Shown here one piece after another: positions 1,781-26,980 of a stretch of DNA of 34,764 bases. The notes beneath the pieces are model-generated. The model saw nothing but the letters and a program-made list of their open reading frames with translations, made no database searches and was not told the DNA's origin. Location: the NCBI GenBank assembly GCA_003230915.1, contig QIHI01000132.1, forward strand, positions 1 through 34,764, read 5' to 3'. Both the position numbers and the translations under genes were made by a program. Within the stretch, counting starts at the first letter, position 1, and each line of letters starts with the position of its first letter. Origin of the DNA: Kiritimatiellales bacterium (lineage in GTDB: Bacteria; Verrucomicrobiota; Kiritimatiellia; Kiritimatiellales; Pontiellaceae).

Positions 1781-1795
1781 TTCCAAAGATTGGAA
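1781..1795. repeat. Intergenic palindrome TTCCAA-N3-TTGGAA, copy 1
   Basis: A perfect 6-3-6 inverted repeat (TTCCAA AGA TTGGAA) lies between the stop codon at 1800 and the predicted terminator. The same arms recur at 13692 and 22533 with different central triplets. Function unknown; a protein-binding site or short extragenic repeat are both possible. Confidence 0.75.
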
Positions 1796-1799
1796 CCGC

Positions 1800-3503
1800 C
1801 TATTCCACGGGCAGAGCTTGCGGCACTCCGCTTTGCGGTTGCTGTATTTTCTGCATCTGCATCATCATAGCCATCTGGCCATACTTGGCGATCAGCTCGC
1901 CGGGCAAGTTGATGCTCCACATCACCCGACCGTCGGCCTTGAACCCGGCGGAAGTGATGGGTTCCACGCCTTGAAAGAGGTCGCCCATTTTCTTGGATAG
2001 CATTGGATTGCCGATATTGGGCATGAAGGAAGTGACGAAGGCCATGTATGCGCCCATGTCGAGATCGAAATAGTAGAAGCCTTCTGCAGGATAGGTGCTA
2101 CGCGCCTTGAGCGAGGTAGGCTTGAATGTTTCATCCTTCAGCCGGTCCAAGGTAGCTTCGATCCTACTTTCTCCCATCGACAAGACCATCACACCATCGT
2201 TAATGGCGATCTCATACACCATGTTCGTCAGATTCATCGCCGATAACTGTTCGACCACTTCCACCGACTGATTCGTCATCGACATACCGAGTGCGAACTG
2301 ATGGATCTTCACTCCATTATGTTCGCGTACATTTTCTTTGAATTCCGGTGCCAAGGACATGCCGAGATCTTCGTATAGCGGCAGGAAAGATTCGAGGTCT
2401 TGTGGCAGTGCCTTAACAATGTTCAGGGCTTCCGCCTCGTCCGTGACATCCATCAAATAACCCATGGTCAGGCCGGATTCACTATCCATACCAACGATTT
2501 CGCTCATGGATCCACCGGACACGTTCCACCATTTCTTTTGGAGGGATACCAAGCCAGCAAGGTCAATTTCCGTTATCTCCATCTCCTTAACGAGTTGTTC
2601 TGCCTCTCCAACCATGAAGTCCATCAGAGCCTGGGGGTTGGTGAGGAAGATATCAAAGCCCAGAGCGCCTCCACCGAGATATCCCGATTGAATTTTGGAA
2701 TTCTGCGTGTTTAGCACAGGCGCATTGCAGAGCGTTTCAAGTCGACTTCCCGCCCTTGGAGCAAAGGTTTTACTGATCCGGATCGATCCATTCTGCGGAG
2801 CCAGCACGATTTCTGCAACATCGCACTGGCCAGCAAGAGACAGAAGCACGCGCAGTTCCCCTTCGAGGAGCCTAAGCGTGTTTTGTACTGAACCCAACGT
2901 AGCGCCCGGTGCCTGCATCATACCTTGTCCCATCAACGCGGGTATCTTCTGTAGCAGGCCTTGGATCTGGTCGTTGTTGCGTTCGACAATCGCGGCGGGC
3001 TGTAAAGCAATGCGTAACGTGGGCGATGGGTTGACCAGTAGCGTGCTTTTCACCGCATCCCTAAAAGCAATCCCTTTGGCAACCTGTTCTTCGGTTTGCC
3101 CAATCACCAAAAGTCCATTGGCATACTCAAATTGAACGCCTTTTGGAGCCAATGCATTGGTATAGGCCGTAATCTGAGCCGCGGCCACTTCGACGACGGC
3201 AAAAATATTGGTGGGATCCAGCGCGATAATCGATAGTCCCTTGCCGGGAGCGATTCCCGCCAGCCCCGGATCACCCAGCTGCATGCCGACCATGCTCTTA
3301 AGCATCATGCCGTTCATCATCGGTGAAACCTGCGCGGCCACGGAACCGACCCCGTTGAGCAATCCGTGTAGATCCGAAATCGTTACGGAGAGCATAGCCT
3401 CTTCCAGCGCAACCGATTTTTCAACCAAGGGTTTGGCATTTGCCACACCTAAAGTCAAAATACTGAGTGTTGTGGCGGCTCCTATTTGCTTCATCCACTT
3501 CAT
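1800..3503 (-). CDS. Large secreted protein of unknown function
   Basis: 567 residues starting MKWMKQIGAATTLSILTLGVANA, a clear Sec signal peptide with an AxA-type cleavage site near residue 24. The start is supported by AGGAGA 5 bp upstream of the ATG. No catalytic motif is recognisable. The mature part alternates hydrophobic and Gly/Met-rich segments, and the C-terminus is Met/Gln/Pro-rich (MMMQMQKIQQPQSGVPQ). It is probably periplasmic or outer-membrane associated. It is divergent from the HEAT-like secreted protein at 3639, with 135 bp between, so the two may share a regulatory region. I do not recognise the family. Confidence 0.85.
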   Translation of the reverse strand: MKWMKQIGAATTLSILTLGVANAKPLVEKSVALEEAMLSVTISDLHGLLNGVGSVAAQVSPMMNGMMLKSMVGMQLGDPGLAGIAPGKGLSIIALDPTNIFAVVEVAAAQITAYTNALAPKGVQFEYANGLLVIGQTEEQVAKGIAFRDAVKSTLLVNPSPTLRIALQPAAIVERNNDQIQGLLQKIPALMGQGMMQAPGATLGSVQNTLRLLEGELRVLLSLAGQCDVAEIVLAPQNGSIRISKTFAPRAGSRLETLCNAPVLNTQNSKIQSGYLGGGALGFDIFLTNPQALMDFMVGEAEQLVKEMEITEIDLAGLVSLQKKWWNVSGGSMSEIVGMDSESGLTMGYLMDVTDEAEALNIVKALPQDLESFLPLYEDLGMSLAPEFKENVREHNGVKIHQFALGMSMTNQSVEVVEQLSAMNLTNMVYEIAINDGVMVLSMGESRIEATLDRLKDETFKPTSLKARSTYPAEGFYYFDLDMGAYMAFVTSFMPNIGNPMLSKKMGDLFQGVEPITSAGFKADGRVMWSINLPGELIAKYGQMAMMMQMQKIQQPQSGVPQALPVE

Positions 3504-13654: not shown

Positions 13655-13683
13655 ACCATAGAGTTTCCATCGCTTTATTTGAA
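13655..13683 (-). promoter_or_regulatory. Possible sppA promoter
   Basis: Minus strand TTCAAA, 17 bp, TATGGT; the -35 sits inside the TTTATTTG-AA-CAAATAAA palindrome. The same TATGGT -10 appears upstream of the TIGR03790 gene. It would place the track's start 13659 inside the promoter. Confidence 0.3.
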
Positions 13684-13691
13684 CAAATAAA
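13674..13691. repeat. AT-rich palindrome TTTATTTG-AA-CAAATAAA
   Basis: Perfect 8-bp arms with a 2-nt centre, directly abutting the TTCCAA-N3-TTGGAA palindrome, in the divergent sppA/kpsF promoter region. A candidate operator. Confidence 0.5.
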
Positions 13692-13706
13692 TTCCAATGG
13701 TTGGAA
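13692..13706. repeat. Intergenic palindrome TTCCAA-N3-TTGGAA, copy 2
   Basis: Perfect 6-3-6 repeat (central TGG) between the divergent sppA and kpsF genes. It overlaps the ATG at 13697 that the ORF track uses as the start of kpsF. Same arms as at 1781 and 22533. Confidence 0.75.
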
Positions 13707-13753
13707 AAAATCAGCTACGGTGCGACCCATCTATTGAAAACGAGGAACATGCT

Positions 13754-14725
13754 TTGGACTACCTTAAACGCGCACGGGAAGTGCTGGACATCGAAATTGC
13801 CGGGCTTGAAACTCTGAAGAATGAAATGGGTGAAGGCTTTATCCGTGCCGTCGATGCCATCCGAGCCACCGTCGGGAACGGTGGAAAGGTCGTTATTACT
13901 GGCGTCGGGAAAAACCTGCACATTGGTAATAAAATCGCCGCAACGCTGACCAGCACCGGCACTCCGGCCGTTGTGATGCACCCCATCGAGGCTATGCACG
14001 GCGACTTCGGCATCCTCGGCGACCGCGACATCCTGCTGGCCATGAGCTATTCCGGGGCCTCCGACGAACTGATCGCCCTGCTCCAACCCGTCAAACGCAA
14101 GGGAGTTCAGATCATCGCCATGACCGGCGAGACGGACAGCCCGCTCGCACAACACAGCGACATCATCGTCTCCATCCGGGTCGACCAAGAAGCCTGCCCG
14201 TTCAATATGGCCCCCACCACCAGCACCACCGCTACCCTCGCGCTTGGCGATGCGCTCGCCATGGTTCTGCTTCAGGCTCACGGCTTCGAGATCGAGGACT
14301 ATGCCAAACTCCACCCCGGCGGCGCCATCGGCCGCACCCTGCTACTACGCGTCGGCGATGTAATGCGTACCGGTGAGCGCTGCGCTCAGGTCGAAGTCGG
14401 CAAACCCGTGCGGGAAGCCTTGATTGCGATGACCGGAGCACAGTCCGGTTGCGTGGCCATCGTCGAAGATGGTGACCAGTTGGTAGGCATCGTCACCGAC
14501 GGCGACCTACGCCGCCATCTGATCGAAACACCCAACCTCGTAGACCAACCGATCGAGTCGATCATGACCGCAAACCCGATTACCCTTTCGAAAGATCAAT
14601 TGGCGCTTGAAATCCTTAATATCTACGAAAAACACAATATCGATGACCTGATCGTGGTGGACGAAAACAACTGCGTTATTGGTGCAGTGGATATCCAGGA
14701 TTTGCCCAAACTGAAAATTCTATAA
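13754..14725 (+). CDS. Arabinose-5-phosphate isomerase (KdsD/KpsF family)
   Basis: About 323 residues. SIS domain: GKVVITGVGKNLHIGNKIAATLTSTGTP (KdsD family: VVxGxGKSG), AMHGDFGIL, SYSGASDEL and MAPTTSTTATLALGDALA with the catalytic acidic/His residues. Two CBS domains follow (VGDVMRTGERCAQV and IESIMTANPITL). It interconverts ribulose-5-phosphate and arabinose-5-phosphate for Kdo synthesis, implying LPS. Start: the track's ATG at 13697 lies inside a palindrome and lacks a ribosome site; TTG at 13754 has GAGG at 8 bp and gives the usual N-terminus LDYLKRAREVLDIEI. The start is uncertain (13697 or 13754). Confidence 0.88.
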   Translation: MDYLKRAREVLDIEIAGLETLKNEMGEGFIRAVDAIRATVGNGGKVVITGVGKNLHIGNKIAATLTSTGTPAVVMHPIEAMHGDFGILGDRDILLAMSYSGASDELIALLQPVKRKGVQIIAMTGETDSPLAQHSDIIVSIRVDQEACPFNMAPTTSTTATLALGDALAMVLLQAHGFEIEDYAKLHPGGAIGRTLLLRVGDVMRTGERCAQVEVGKPVREALIAMTGAQSGCVAIVEDGDQLVGIVTDGDLRRHLIETPNLVDQPIESIMTANPITLSKDQLALEILNIYEKHNIDDLIVVDENNCVIGAVDIQDLPKLKIL

Positions 14726-22532: not shown

Positions 22533-22549
22533 TTTCCAACCCTTGGAAA
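22533..22549. repeat. Palindrome TTTCCAA-N3-TTGGAAA, copy 3, between divergent promoters
   Basis: Perfect 7-3-7 inverted repeat (central CCC), 6 bp from the left -35 (22522-22527) and 8 bp from the right -35 (22557-22562). Its position suggests a shared operator or activator site for both divergent transcripts. Confidence 0.75.
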
Positions 22550-22591: not shown

Positions 22592-23389
22592 ATGAATGAA
22601 CAAACCTTATCCCACATTGTGCTGTATGGTGGCGGCCTCTACCTTTTGCTCAACTTGCTGGCTCTGTTATTTTCGGAAAAGCTAATCTTCGCTCCGCAAA
22701 CTCCGAGCTATGACCAGCTACCCGGCGAATTGAAAATCGCTTCCGGCAACGGCGAAAAAATTAACGCCGTCTATCTCGAAACCTTGAACGCGGAATACAC
22801 CCTCCTTTTCAGCCACGGGAACGCGGAAGATCTTGGCAACGTGCTTCCGTTTATGCGGCAGTTCCAATCCCTCGGCTACTCGGTCTTGATGTACGACTAC
22901 CGTGGCTACGGCACCAGCGAAGGGTCGCCCTCCGTCCGCAAAGCCTATCAGGATATCGATGCTGCCTACCGATGGCTTACTGAAGAAAAGAAGATCGCCC
23001 CAAAAACCATCATCGTTCAGGGCCGCTCCGTTGGCGGCGGCCCCTCCACTTGGCTCGCTGCACGCCGTGAGGTCGGCGGCCTGTTTTTAGAGAGTACCTT
23101 CACTTCCGCATTCCGCGTAAAAACCGTTATCCCGCTACTGCCGTGGGATAAATTCGATAACCTGCGACACATCAAACAGACCACCTGCCCAGTCTTCATC
23201 ATGCATGGACGCAACGACACGATCATTCCCTTCTGGCACGGCAAGAAACTTTACGATGCCGCGCCGGGGAAAAAGATGCACCTCTGGATCGACGGTGCCG
23301 AGCACAACAACTACGCCTACATCGCTGGCGACGACTATATCGACTCGTTCCAAGCCTTCATGAAACTGGTACGCGACGATGCCGAATAG
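22592..23389 (+). CDS. Membrane-anchored alpha/beta hydrolase (Bem46-like)
   Basis: 265 residues. One N-terminal hydrophobic segment (residues 7-27, HIVLYGGGLYLLLNLLALLF) is followed by an alpha/beta-hydrolase domain. Triad visible: Ser146 in QGRSVGGGP, Asp209 in HGRNDTIIP and His238 in DGAEHNNY. The conserved SHGNAED of the oxyanion region (FSHGNA, residues 73-78) is also present. BEM46/ABHD13-type proteins are serine hydrolases of unknown substrate. It is monocistronic, ending at the terminator at 23465. There is no ribosome site, in keeping with a leaderless message. Confidence 0.88.
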   Translation: MNEQTLSHIVLYGGGLYLLLNLLALLFSEKLIFAPQTPSYDQLPGELKIASGNGEKINAVYLETLNAEYTLLFSHGNAEDLGNVLPFMRQFQSLGYSVLMYDYRGYGTSEGSPSVRKAYQDIDAAYRWLTEEKKIAPKTIIVQGRSVGGGPSTWLAARREVGGLFLESTFTSAFRVKTVIPLLPWDKFDNLRHIKQTTCPVFIMHGRNDTIIPFWHGKKLYDAAPGKKMHLWIDGAEHNNYAYIAGDDYIDSFQAFMKLVRDDAE

Positions 23390-23491: not shown

Positions 23492-23812
23492 TTCCTGCCA
23501 ATGTTGTGGTAGCTCCATCAACTTTCGCTTAGCGAATATCGCCCCTGAAACAGATGTCCCCAGAGCTAGGGCGAGCATTGTATCGTATGCGGATATCCAA
23601 CGATTCTGCCCGGAACAGATTATGTACCAGGTAGCTTATGCCGATCTGGAAGTATCACCGCTCCTGACCGTTAAAGAGTTTCGCACCCCATATATTTATA
23701 GCATGGTACATGTATTCAGGCTAACGGATGTTACTTTATAGTGCCGAATTGACACTATTTATCCTAAAAAATGAGTTGATCGATTCTGCGCCTTAATGGC
23801 ACATTATTGCTC
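23492..23812. other. Gene-free stretch before the two-component pair
   Basis: About 320 bp with no gene I can support. It contains palindromes TTCGCT-T-AGCGAA (23524-23536) and ATAGTG-N9-CACTAT, an AT-rich section with TATAGT about 70 bp before the kinase start, and a near-miss sigma-54-like TGGCAC...TTGC just before the ATG. A 59-codon minus-strand frame (23399-23578) overlaps the terminator and has no ribosome site. Regulation of the kinase gene presumably lies here. Confidence 0.4.
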
Positions 23813-24997
23813 ATGAAACCGGGATTTTTTGATAAATTGGTAAATCGGCTGGATCATTTAGATTCGGGAAGTTTACAGGCCTACTTCTTGCGCTTGGCGA
23901 AAGAGAAAGGTTTGATGGAAACCATTTTCCAGGCTTTGGAAGAAGGGTTGATCGTGCTTGATGCCGAGGCGCAGATCAGCTACGCCAACCGTGCGGCCGA
24001 GCAGATGCTCGGTTTCACACTTGAAAACGCACTGGGCGTCTCGATTCAGCACTATCTCAAGGATATCCACTGGGATCTCGTACTCGACCTCGATGAATAC
24101 GAATGGAGCCAGCTTGTCCGGCGCGAGATTGAGGTGACCTATCCACAGCATCGCTTCATGGAATTCTATGTCGTTCCGCTTGCCGCCGTCGATGAGAAGG
24201 AAGAGGGTGCTGTGGTCATTTTCCGGGATGTAACCCGCGAACGCGAAAGCACCGCTGAGTCGATCGAATCCGAGCGATTGCACGCACTGAGCCTACTGGC
24301 CGCTGGTGTTGCCCACGAAATTGGAAACCCGCTCAACTCGATCAACATCCATCTCCAGTTGCTCGACCGCGAGATTGGCGATCTGATGGACGATAAGGCT
24401 AAAAAGGAGTTGAAAGAACTGGTCGATATTTCACGCAAGGAGGTGGAGCGACTCGACGCGATTATCCGCCAGTTTCTGAAAGCCCTACGTCCGTCGCTGC
24501 CGGAGCGCAAGCCGGTGAAGCTGGCCTGCTTGATCGACGAGATGCTCGAAGTGATGAAGCACGAAATCAACGACCGTCAAATGCTGGTCGAAACAGACTT
24601 TCCTGAAGACATTCCCCCCGTTGCGGTCGATGAGACGCAGGTGAAGCAGGCCTTCTTCAACGTCATCAAGAACGCGTTGCAGGCGATGGCCGACGGTGGG
24701 ATTCTCAGAATCAACATGGTTCAGTCTGATCGTTTCGTTAGTATGGTGATCGAAGACAACGGTCCCGGTATTGATCCTGAAAAGCTCGGTGCGATCTACG
24801 AACCCTTCCACACCACGAAGCCTGAAGGTACCGGCCTCGGTATGATGATTGTCCAGCGCATCATGCGCGACCACGGTGGTGAGATTGAAATCAATACCGA
24901 GCTTGAGCGCGGTACGCGGTTGACGCTGCGCTTTCCGCGGCAAGACGCACGCATTAATTTGCTGAATGCCCCGGAGAAGGAGGTCACCCATGAGTAA
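23813..24997 (+). CDS. PAS-domain sensor histidine kinase, NtrB/AtoS-like
   Basis: 394 residues from ATG 23813 (the track's TTG 23807 adds two codons; no ribosome site before either). No membrane segment, so cytoplasmic. PAS domain at ~36-145 (ALEEGLIVLDAEAQISYANRAAEQMLG). HisKA domain with phospho-accepting His168 in SLLAAGVAHEIGNPLNSI, then the HATPase: N box FFNVIKNALQAM, G1 DNGPGID, F box YEPFHTTK and G2 EGTGLGMMI. It phosphorylates its partner response regulator, which it overlaps by 8 bp. The signal is unknown. Confidence 0.92.
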   Translation: MKPGFFDKLVNRLDHLDSGSLQAYFLRLAKEKGLMETIFQALEEGLIVLDAEAQISYANRAAEQMLGFTLENALGVSIQHYLKDIHWDLVLDLDEYEWSQLVRREIEVTYPQHRFMEFYVVPLAAVDEKEEGAVVIFRDVTRERESTAESIESERLHALSLLAAGVAHEIGNPLNSINIHLQLLDREIGDLMDDKAKKELKELVDISRKEVERLDAIIRQFLKALRPSLPERKPVKLACLIDEMLEVMKHEINDRQMLVETDFPEDIPPVAVDETQVKQAFFNVIKNALQAMADGGILRINMVQSDRFVSMVIEDNGPGIDPEKLGAIYEPFHTTKPEGTGLGMMIVQRIMRDHGGEIEINTELERGTRLTLRFPRQDARINLLNAPEKEVTHE

Positions 24998-26342
24998 GCC
25001 AATCGTTCTTATTGTCGATGATGAAAAGAGCGCGCGCGATGGATTAGTGCGAGCCCTACGACAGGGCTACCGGGTCTTTGTGGCAGAGAACGGAACATCT
25101 GCGCTGGAGGTACTAGCCAGCCAGAAAATCGATGTGCTGTTGAGCGATGTCCGCATGCCGGGGATGGATGGTATTACGTTGATGCAGCGCGCGCTAGCCA
25201 ATCACCCGGGACTCATCTGCATTATTCTGACGGCCTATGGCGACGTAGAGCTGGCGGTGCAGGCGATGCAGCAAGGTGCAACAGATTTCATGACCAAACC
25301 GATCAACCTCGACAAGCTGGAGCTAGTCCTTGGTCGTGTGCTGAAGGCCAAGAGGATGGAGTTGGAAAATGAACAATTGCGTGCGCAGCTCGACGACAAG
25401 TATGGCCTGGAAAACATGGTTGGCCACTCTGCCCCGATGCAGGAAATCTTCGAAACTATCCGGCAGGTGGCCAGCTCGCGCGCGACGGTATTGATTCAGG
25501 GCGAAAGCGGAACCGGGAAGGAGCTGGTCGCCAAGGCGATCCACCAGCTGGGTTCGCGCTCGAAAGGACCGTTCGTGGCGGTACACTGCGCCGCCCTCTC
25601 GCAAAACCTGCTGGAGAGTGAATTATTTGGCCACGAAAAAGGAGCATTTACCGGCGCAATGGAGCGGCGCATCGGTCGTTTCGAGAAGGCTGACGGCGGG
25701 TCGCTGTTCCTCGACGAGATCAGCGAGATAGATGCCTCGGTACAGGTGAAAATTCTCCGAGCGCTGGAGGAGCGGCAGATCGAGCGCGTCGGTGGCGATA
25801 CACCAGTGGATGTCGATTCGCGCTTGATCGCCGCCACCAACCGCGACCTTAAAGGCATGGTCGATGAAGGCGCATTCCGCGAGGATCTGTTTTACCGTCT
25901 CTACGTCGTCGTCATCACCTTACCGCCTTTGCGAGAACGGCAGGACGACATTCTGTTGCTGCTGAACCATTTTCTGGCCGGGTTCAACGAAGAGAACGGG
26001 AAGCAGATCGAGGGTTTCACCCCAGCGGCCTACGAGATGCTATCGAGCTACGAATGGCCCGGCAACATCCGTGAGTTGCGCAACCTCGTCGAGCGCATGG
26101 TGGTACTCGCGCGCGGGAAGATGCTGGATGTGAAGGACATCCCGATACAGGTGCGCGAGCAGGCCAGCGACGGCGAGGTGCGGATCGATGCCGACCTCAC
26201 CGTCGACGAAATGGAAAAGCGGATGGTCGTCCAAGCGCTGGAAAAAACCGGCGGCAACCGTACGAAAGCGGCCGAAAAACTCGGTGTCAGCCGCCGGACA
26301 CTGCACCGCAAGCTGAACGAGTATGGCATTGGAAAGAGCTAG
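24990..26342 (+). CDS. Sigma-54-dependent response regulator, NtrC/AtoC family
   Basis: 450 residues from ATG 24990 (GAAGGAGGT 6 bp upstream; the track's 24966 ATG lies inside the kinase gene). Receiver: IVDDE, phospho-acceptor D53, LTAYGD and K103. AAA+ domain ~140-370 with Walker A GESGTGKE (171-178), GAFTGA loop 218-223 for sigma-54 contact, Walker B SLFLDEI and the RED-LFYRLYVV arginine region. Fis-type helix-turn-helix at the end (GGNRTKAAEKLGVSRRTLHRKL). Activates sigma-54 promoters when phosphorylated; its targets are unknown. It overlaps the kinase stop by 8 bp. Confidence 0.96.
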   Translation: MSKPIVLIVDDEKSARDGLVRALRQGYRVFVAENGTSALEVLASQKIDVLLSDVRMPGMDGITLMQRALANHPGLICIILTAYGDVELAVQAMQQGATDFMTKPINLDKLELVLGRVLKAKRMELENEQLRAQLDDKYGLENMVGHSAPMQEIFETIRQVASSRATVLIQGESGTGKELVAKAIHQLGSRSKGPFVAVHCAALSQNLLESELFGHEKGAFTGAMERRIGRFEKADGGSLFLDEISEIDASVQVKILRALEERQIERVGGDTPVDVDSRLIAATNRDLKGMVDEGAFREDLFYRLYVVVITLPPLRERQDDILLLLNHFLAGFNEENGKQIEGFTPAAYEMLSSYEWPGNIRELRNLVERMVVLARGKMLDVKDIPIQVREQASDGEVRIDADLTVDEMEKRMVVQALEKTGGNRTKAAEKLGVSRRTLHRKLNEYGIGKS

Positions 26343-26440: not shown

Positions 26441-26980
26441 ATGTTGAAACGTGATGAAGCGGCGTTGGTATTTATTGATGTGCAGGGGAAGCTGCATGGA
26501 ATCATGGATGGGAAGGAGGTGCTTGATGGCAACCTGACGCGGATGATCGAGTGCGCGAAGCTGCTGGAGATTCCGATTGTTGGCACGGAGCAAATTCCCG
26601 AAAAGCTCGGCCCGACCACCGAACTATTTAAATCGTTGCTTGCCGATATTCCAATGATTGGAAAATCGGCTTTCAGCTGTTGTGGTGAGCCAAAGTTTAT
26701 GGAGGCTTTTCAGGCTTTGAGGAAACCACAGGCGATACTTATCGGGATCGAGGCTCATGTCTGCGTCTACCAAACCGCCCTCGATTTGCTTGAGGATGGA
26801 ATCGAAGTGTTTGTGGTGGCCGATGCGGTATCGTCGCGTACTCTCGAAAACAAAGCGCTGGCACTGCAGGCCATGCACGATGCCGGGGCAAAGGTGCTTC
26901 CGGCTGAAACCATTCTATTTGCTTTGCTGCGCGATGCCGCCGACCCGCACTTTAAGGGATTGCTCAAATTGATCAAATAG
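26441..26980 (+). CDS. Isochorismatase-fold cysteine hydrolase
   Basis: 179 residues; AAAGGAG 6 bp before the ATG. Catalytic triad visible: Asp13 (VFIDVQG), Lys75 (GKSAFSC) and Cys108 (GIEAHVCV), with the cis-peptide motif of the family in GIEAHVC. YcaC/nicotinamidase-like enzymes hydrolyse amide or similar bonds; the substrate cannot be assigned. A cytoplasmic enzyme. The following pterin dehydratase gene starts 80 bp downstream. Confidence 0.88.
   Translation: MLKRDEAALVFIDVQGKLHGIMDGKEVLDGNLTRMIECAKLLEIPIVGTEQIPEKLGPTTELFKSLLADIPMIGKSAFSCCGEPKFMEAFQALRKPQAILIGIEAHVCVYQTALDLLEDGIEVFVVADAVSSRTLENKALALQAMHDAGAKVLPAETILFALLRDAADPHFKGLLKLIK

Follow-up and report, generated by a model that had tools for sequence, protein, structure and literature searches.

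The window, the whole 34,764 nt stretch of DNA analysed here, contains four exact matches to the palindrome TTCCAANNNTTGGAA, where the chance expectation from 100 dinucleotide shuffles is 0 (Table 1). The initial annotation had recorded three perfect copies. Those at 1781 and 13692 stand; the third starts at 22534 and not at 22533, and the fourth, at 26649, had been overlooked. A one-mismatch copy in a PAS histidine kinase ORF carries the change of inner A to G, the most frequent one-mismatch type. This kinase gene adjoins, within 23807–26342, a gene for a sigma-54-dependent response regulator (Pfam).

Table 1. Copies of the palindrome and associated features in the window
Feature	Coordinates	Strand	Remarks
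Exact site TTCCAA-AGA-TTGGAA	1781..1795	.	Intergenic, 4 bp beyond end of minus-strand ORF 1800–3503
Conserved kpsF upstream element around palindrome	13673..13722	+	AT-rich left part, AAAATC right part
Exact site TTCCAA-TGG-TTGGAA	13692..13706	.	Upstream of kpsF-like gene
kpsF-like SIS-CBS sugar-phosphate isomerase gene	13754..14725	+	Likely TTG start, from ortholog alignment
Exact site TTCCAA-CCC-TTGGAA	22534..22548	.	Divergent intergenic region, 43 bp 5' of plus-strand hydrolase ORF at 22592
One-mismatch copy TTCCAG-GCT-TTGGAA	23927..23941	.	Inside PAS histidine kinase ORF 23807–24997
Isochorismatase-family gene hosting coding site	26441..26980	+	Pfam
Two-mismatch position	26571..26585	.	Same isochorismatase gene; exact sites here in genomes G160, G248 and G307
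Exact site TTCCAA-TGA-TTGGAA	26649..26663	.	Within isochorismatase-family gene; made by point substitution

As called, the site at 13692 seems to overlap a start codon. A TTG at 13754 is conserved in the orthologs, which places the palindrome upstream of the kpsF-like gene and not within it; translation of this gene likely starts at that codon. The closest named matches of the KpsF product share 94% identity (a Verrucomicrobia MAG) and 81–86% identity (Kiritimatiellales and Pontiella MAGs). The upstream palindrome is kept, with the same centre TGG, in the records of eight relatives. The sequence CTTTATTTGAAyAAATAAA to its left and AAAATC to its right are partly retained even where the palindrome has decayed. 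This conserved element may be a promoter.

Anatomy and distribution of the motif

In the host genome (Kiritimatiellales, Pontiellaceae), 31 exact copies are present, against 0 for a reversed control pattern, which bears out the original suggestion that the palindrome occurs far beyond chance. When up to one mismatch is allowed, there are 130 copies against 3 for the control. Among the 48 host arm pairs separated by a gap of 0–30 bp, 31 have a gap of exactly 3 bp.

At the centre of the gap, exact sites have G or C in 56/56 cases in genome G160, 59/61 in G081 and 82/84 in G065, so the true motif is TTCCAANSNTTGGAA, with a G or C at the dyad. The two bases flanking the dyad vary more than the dyad itself. 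In families f4 and f22 the motif carries an extra A/T step, TTTTCC...GGAAAA. Half-sites alone, with palindromes masked, occur at about 1.1–1.6 times expectation, and the unit is the whole 6-3-6 palindrome. Likewise, apart from copies of the full motif, the shorter cores CCAN5TGG and CCAAN3TTGG occur about as often as expected. G160 has more copies of TCCAN5TGGA than expected (29 against 3.7), in keeping with full motifs in which both inner positions have been substituted. Among 206 sampled one-mismatch copies, 99 have the inner A changed to G, and the CC step tolerates change least. Over-representation falls sharply at the first mismatch, as it does in DNA uptake sequences (DUS/USS).

Across 289 genomes of the phylum, exact copies number from 0 to 1,339 per genome within the class Kiritimatiellae and 0–5, near chance, outside it. 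Genomes of the same genus contain 3, 4, 31, 74, 334, 640, 1,132 and 1,177 copies. Ratios of exact to one-mismatch copies, derived by setting the exact counts against those for up to one mismatch, are 853/382 in G065, 1,339/969 in G012, 459/31 in G090 and 1,177/1,553 in G160. In the first three of these copy-rich genomes, exact copies rival or outnumber all one-mismatch copies combined. The host genome, with a ratio of 31/99, looks as if its copies are weakly maintained or decaying.

Two observations concern other repeats. With up to one mismatch allowed, the reversed control matched 54 times in genome G175, far above other genomes, which suggests an unrelated repeat. In G081, another repeat that contains a palindrome (CCACGC/GCCCGC) is present 29 times in stretches L062–L082 and may represent a CRISPR array. 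No alternative 'dialect' palindromes were found in the sampled stretches of motif-poor relatives. A search of an open-access library returned no earlier description of the palindrome; judged by title and abstract, the matches for palindromes in Kiritimatiellae concerned unrelated matters only.

Coding copies and position relative to genes

The copies had at first been taken to lie outside coding sequence and, in every case, 5' to a gene. In the window, the copy in the isochorismatase ORF contradicts the former and the copy just past the end of a minus-strand ORF speaks against the latter as a general rule. Genome-wide, 23 of the 31 host sites are in called genes (22 with the kpsF start placed at 13754), as are 46/61 in G081 and 34/56 in G160, whose sampled stretches had in part been selected around pairs already known. 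These coding calls come from a simple codon-based gene-calling script with approximate start codons. Sites within genes occupy all three frames. Set against the refuting conditions first proposed, counts at chance level or equal density in genes, the count is far above chance, and the density within genes is only about 2–3 times below that of extragenic DNA.

Families differ in this respect. In f1 and f2 most copies are inside genes, and in f4, f22 and other families the majority are intergenic. The copies are not enriched upstream of genes, and the depletion in convergent regions that might accompany a promoter element is also not seen. Occupancy in f4 is highest in convergent regions (14/23) and lowest in divergent ones (12/40); of the 42 clusters in tandem regions, 30 are closer to the upstream stop. 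This distribution does not fit a promoter operator, and the earlier proposal of a promoter or global regulator site is disfavoured.

The isochorismatase gene indicates how coding copies may have originated. G248 has three exact sites in this gene, and the alignment of the relatives' orthologs is free of gaps at these positions; the exact copies are in motif-rich genomes, and others have 1–9 mismatches. The gap-free alignment excludes mobile-element insertion for these copies. G160 and G248 share all three sites. Outside the sites, 78 of 164 third codon positions (48%) differ between the two orthologs, and in the arms 0/12 third positions, or 0/36 over all arm positions, differ (one gene, three sites). 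At the site centres, the outer positions differ in 3/6 cases and the dyad in 0/3. The sites in the isochorismatase gene were thus made by point substitution and then held at the DNA level. With coding copies in all three frames, and those examined having arisen by substitution, the palindrome cannot be a very short extragenic repeat, as had also been considered.

Helical phasing and a probable protein reader

Neighbouring copies in G081, the best-phased genome, lie on one helical face. Their spacings are mostly 22, 31–32, 41–42, 53 and 63 bp; when one-mismatch copies are counted too, R=0.90 for a period of 10.5 bp, at a nominal p of about 3e-10. In f4, f22, f7 and other families there are pairs whose starts are 31–32 bp apart and whose spacers are unrelated, and the intergenic arrays of f10 have regular spacing and common outer ends. 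Phasing is weak in G160, and in pooled f1 it is not specific to the 10.5-bp period. Phasing such as that in G081 and the array families may be read as a signature of cooperative binding to duplex DNA.

Genome G090 has two seven-site arrays, at L217:8595-8776 and L052:7082-7263, with nearly mirror-symmetric spacing (22-30-31-31-31-22 and 22-31-31-31-30-22). Their outer ends resemble AAGTTTTCC...GGAAAACTT.

Close pairs are also found in viral contigs, mostly at 21, 31–32, 41–42, 53 and 62 bp; the search covered gaps of 5–9, 14–18 and 24–50 bp, and the range of spacings is therefore not fully free. In a tailed-phage contig with terminase, portal and head protease genes (L142:650-767), four copies at 31, 31 and 41 bp lie in an apparently intergenic stretch before the packaging genes. 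A few viral contigs have phased pairs, this phage contig and one with transposition genes among them; they do not discriminate between the hypotheses.

The sharp symmetric motif, the G/C dyad, the helical phasing and the arms frozen across species support the early suggestion of a site for a DNA-binding or nucleoid protein. The palindrome is very probably a cooperative site for a dimeric protein that binds double-stranded DNA. In the mechanism proposed, TTCCAANSNTTGGAA would be bound by a sequence-specific dimeric duplex-DNA-binding protein that part of the class Kiritimatiellae possesses. One TTCCAA arm would be read by each subunit, with the CC/GG step read most strictly and the dyad almost always G:C, and adjacent dimers would cooperate if they lie 2, 3, 4, 5 or 6 turns apart on one face of the helix. 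Point mutation would create sites in coding as well as non-coding DNA, and these would then be kept exact. The protein would be a sequence-specific nucleoid-associated protein, with its sites marking the whole chromosome. A role in the nucleoid or in chromosome organisation is favoured because phasing and arrays indicate nucleoprotein complexes. The proposal as a whole, a dimeric protein site with such a role in part of the class, is plausible on sequence grounds but tentative. A thousand individually selected genic sites are hard to explain by weak selection for nucleoid binding, and a transmission drive would explain them more easily.

Such a drive is the basis of the strongest alternative, which we consider unlikely though deserving of serious attention: a signal like the uptake sequences of Haemophilus and Neisseria, in which motif-bearing DNA would be preferred for uptake (or packaging) and then recombined. 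Any point mutation that yields a new copy would thereby spread through the genome, with a dimeric, oligomerising receptor as the reader. The near-exact copies, hundreds to more than 1,000 of them within genes and outside, and the gain by substitution are consistent with this, and a drive of this kind explains the point-gained coding copies best. The sharp drop from zero to one mismatch and the large differences between sister species also match the published behaviour of uptake sequences, but these are reported not to be palindromes (PMC1939737). Helical phasing and arrays of 2–7 copies would in addition be unexpected. The presence of ComEC in 51/53 genomes would agree with an uptake signal; however, it is equally common in motif-free genomes, and no ComEC match was found in motif-rich G118. 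As a near-universal protein that does not track copy number, ComEC is uninformative.

A classical global transcription regulator that controls a very large regulon and uses the palindrome as its operator is improbable. The conserved kpsF upstream site and its centre, the two window copies upstream of genes and the size of the symmetric 15-bp site, which is that of a dimeric helix-turn-helix operator, would agree with this. Against it are the mostly genic copies of f1 and f2 and the orientation bias in f4 described above.

An iterated palindrome like HIP1, with a modified core on which methylation-dependent repair acts to create and preserve the copies, would account for high copy number in coding and non-coding DNA and for patchy occurrence among relatives, as for HIP1 (PMC4390886). 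This explanation is nonetheless very improbable. No shorter methyltransferase core is enriched, the one excess seen, in G160, fits substitution within the full motif, and twelve fixed bases with a gap are long for a methyltransferase site. Helical phasing would also be left unexplained.

Spread of a mobile extragenic palindrome by a Y1 (RAYT) transposase, as for REP/REPIN elements, is also hard to credit. The f10 intergenic arrays with their common outer ends, and the lean of f4 copies to gene ends, recall such elements, but there are many coding copies, those aligned are gap-free substitutions, and spacers are unrelated. Y1 transposases (PF01797, with the RAYT subfamily not separated) were rejected as determinants; their counts do not track the motif, with 0 in motif-rich G151 and 14 in motif-free G068.

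An RNA hairpin acting as a terminator or mRNA stabiliser is scarcely tenable: although TTTTCCAANSNTTGGAAAA can be drawn as a stem of 8 bp with a loop of 3 nt and f4 copies lean to gene ends, the extended motif is followed by A and not by a T-run, many copies are in coding sequence, and one-mismatch transitions that keep a G-U pair or break pairing on the transcribed strand are about equally frequent (57 vs 60), a strand symmetry that contradicts this reading.

Other candidates for the dimeric reader were compared with copy number. A single-family Lrp/AsnC protein is encoded in 27/27 motif-rich and 22/26 motif-poor genomes, and its helix-turn-helix is nearly unchanged in G050 and G087. Neither presence of the ortholog nor its DNA-binding domain follows the motif, and Lrp/AsnC was rejected as sole determinant. 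HU was also rejected, with counts alike in motif-rich and motif-poor genomes. Thus, among the Lrp ortholog, ComEC, Y1 transposase and HU, none tracks copy number, and the comparison yielded no candidate for the reader.

Relation to known systems

To our knowledge, few systems imprint an exact motif of at least 8 bp hundreds of times per genome, namely uptake sequences, HIP1 and Chi, and we know of no earlier case in which a gapped palindrome, helical phasing and gain within codons occur together. Chromosome architecture sites such as those of matS/MatP, Noc and SlmA are also exact palindromes distributed across the chromosome and read by a dimeric protein. In comparison, the copy number here is 10–100 times higher and there are helical tandem arrays; we know of no family member or matching site sequence among systems of these types. 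Sites of Lrp/AsnC (feast–famine) proteins are likewise 15 bp and symmetric, with regular spacing of about three helical turns. The single Lrp ortholog is, however, found in motif-rich and motif-poor genomes alike. An Lrp/AsnC octamer is reported (PMC10127797).

The DUS/USS of Neisseriaceae and Pasteurellaceae (PMC1939737, PMC3630211) resemble the present motif in their many near-exact copies genome-wide, including genic ones, in gain by point mutation and in their differences among related species. They are reported not to be palindromes, and the gapped palindrome with a G/C dyad and the helically phased pairs and arrays seen here set the two apart. HIP1 of cyanobacteria (PMC4390886) is similarly a palindrome of high copy number in coding and non-coding DNA that is lost in some relatives. 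The motif described here differs in its length of 15 bp with a 3-bp gap, in having no shorter enriched core and in its helical tandem arrays. REP/BIME/REPIN elements with RAYT transposases (PMC2817692, PMC3116915) are likewise short, regularly spaced palindromes of high copy number that in some families lie close to gene ends, whereas the present motif enters genes by substitution and shows no correlation with Y1 transposases.

The palindrome could be a self-propagating genomic signature: read as helically phased dimers and conferring an advantage in transmission or maintenance, it would write itself into coding sequence by point mutation across much of the class, and would be gained and lost repeatedly together with a putative DNA-binding protein. 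This broader view is possible, if speculative. The class Kiritimatiellae has barely been studied, and genomes of one genus with 1,177 and 3 copies offer a natural comparison for finding the protein. The palindrome would make it possible to test directly which of uptake, chromosome organisation and repair drives genome-wide motifs.
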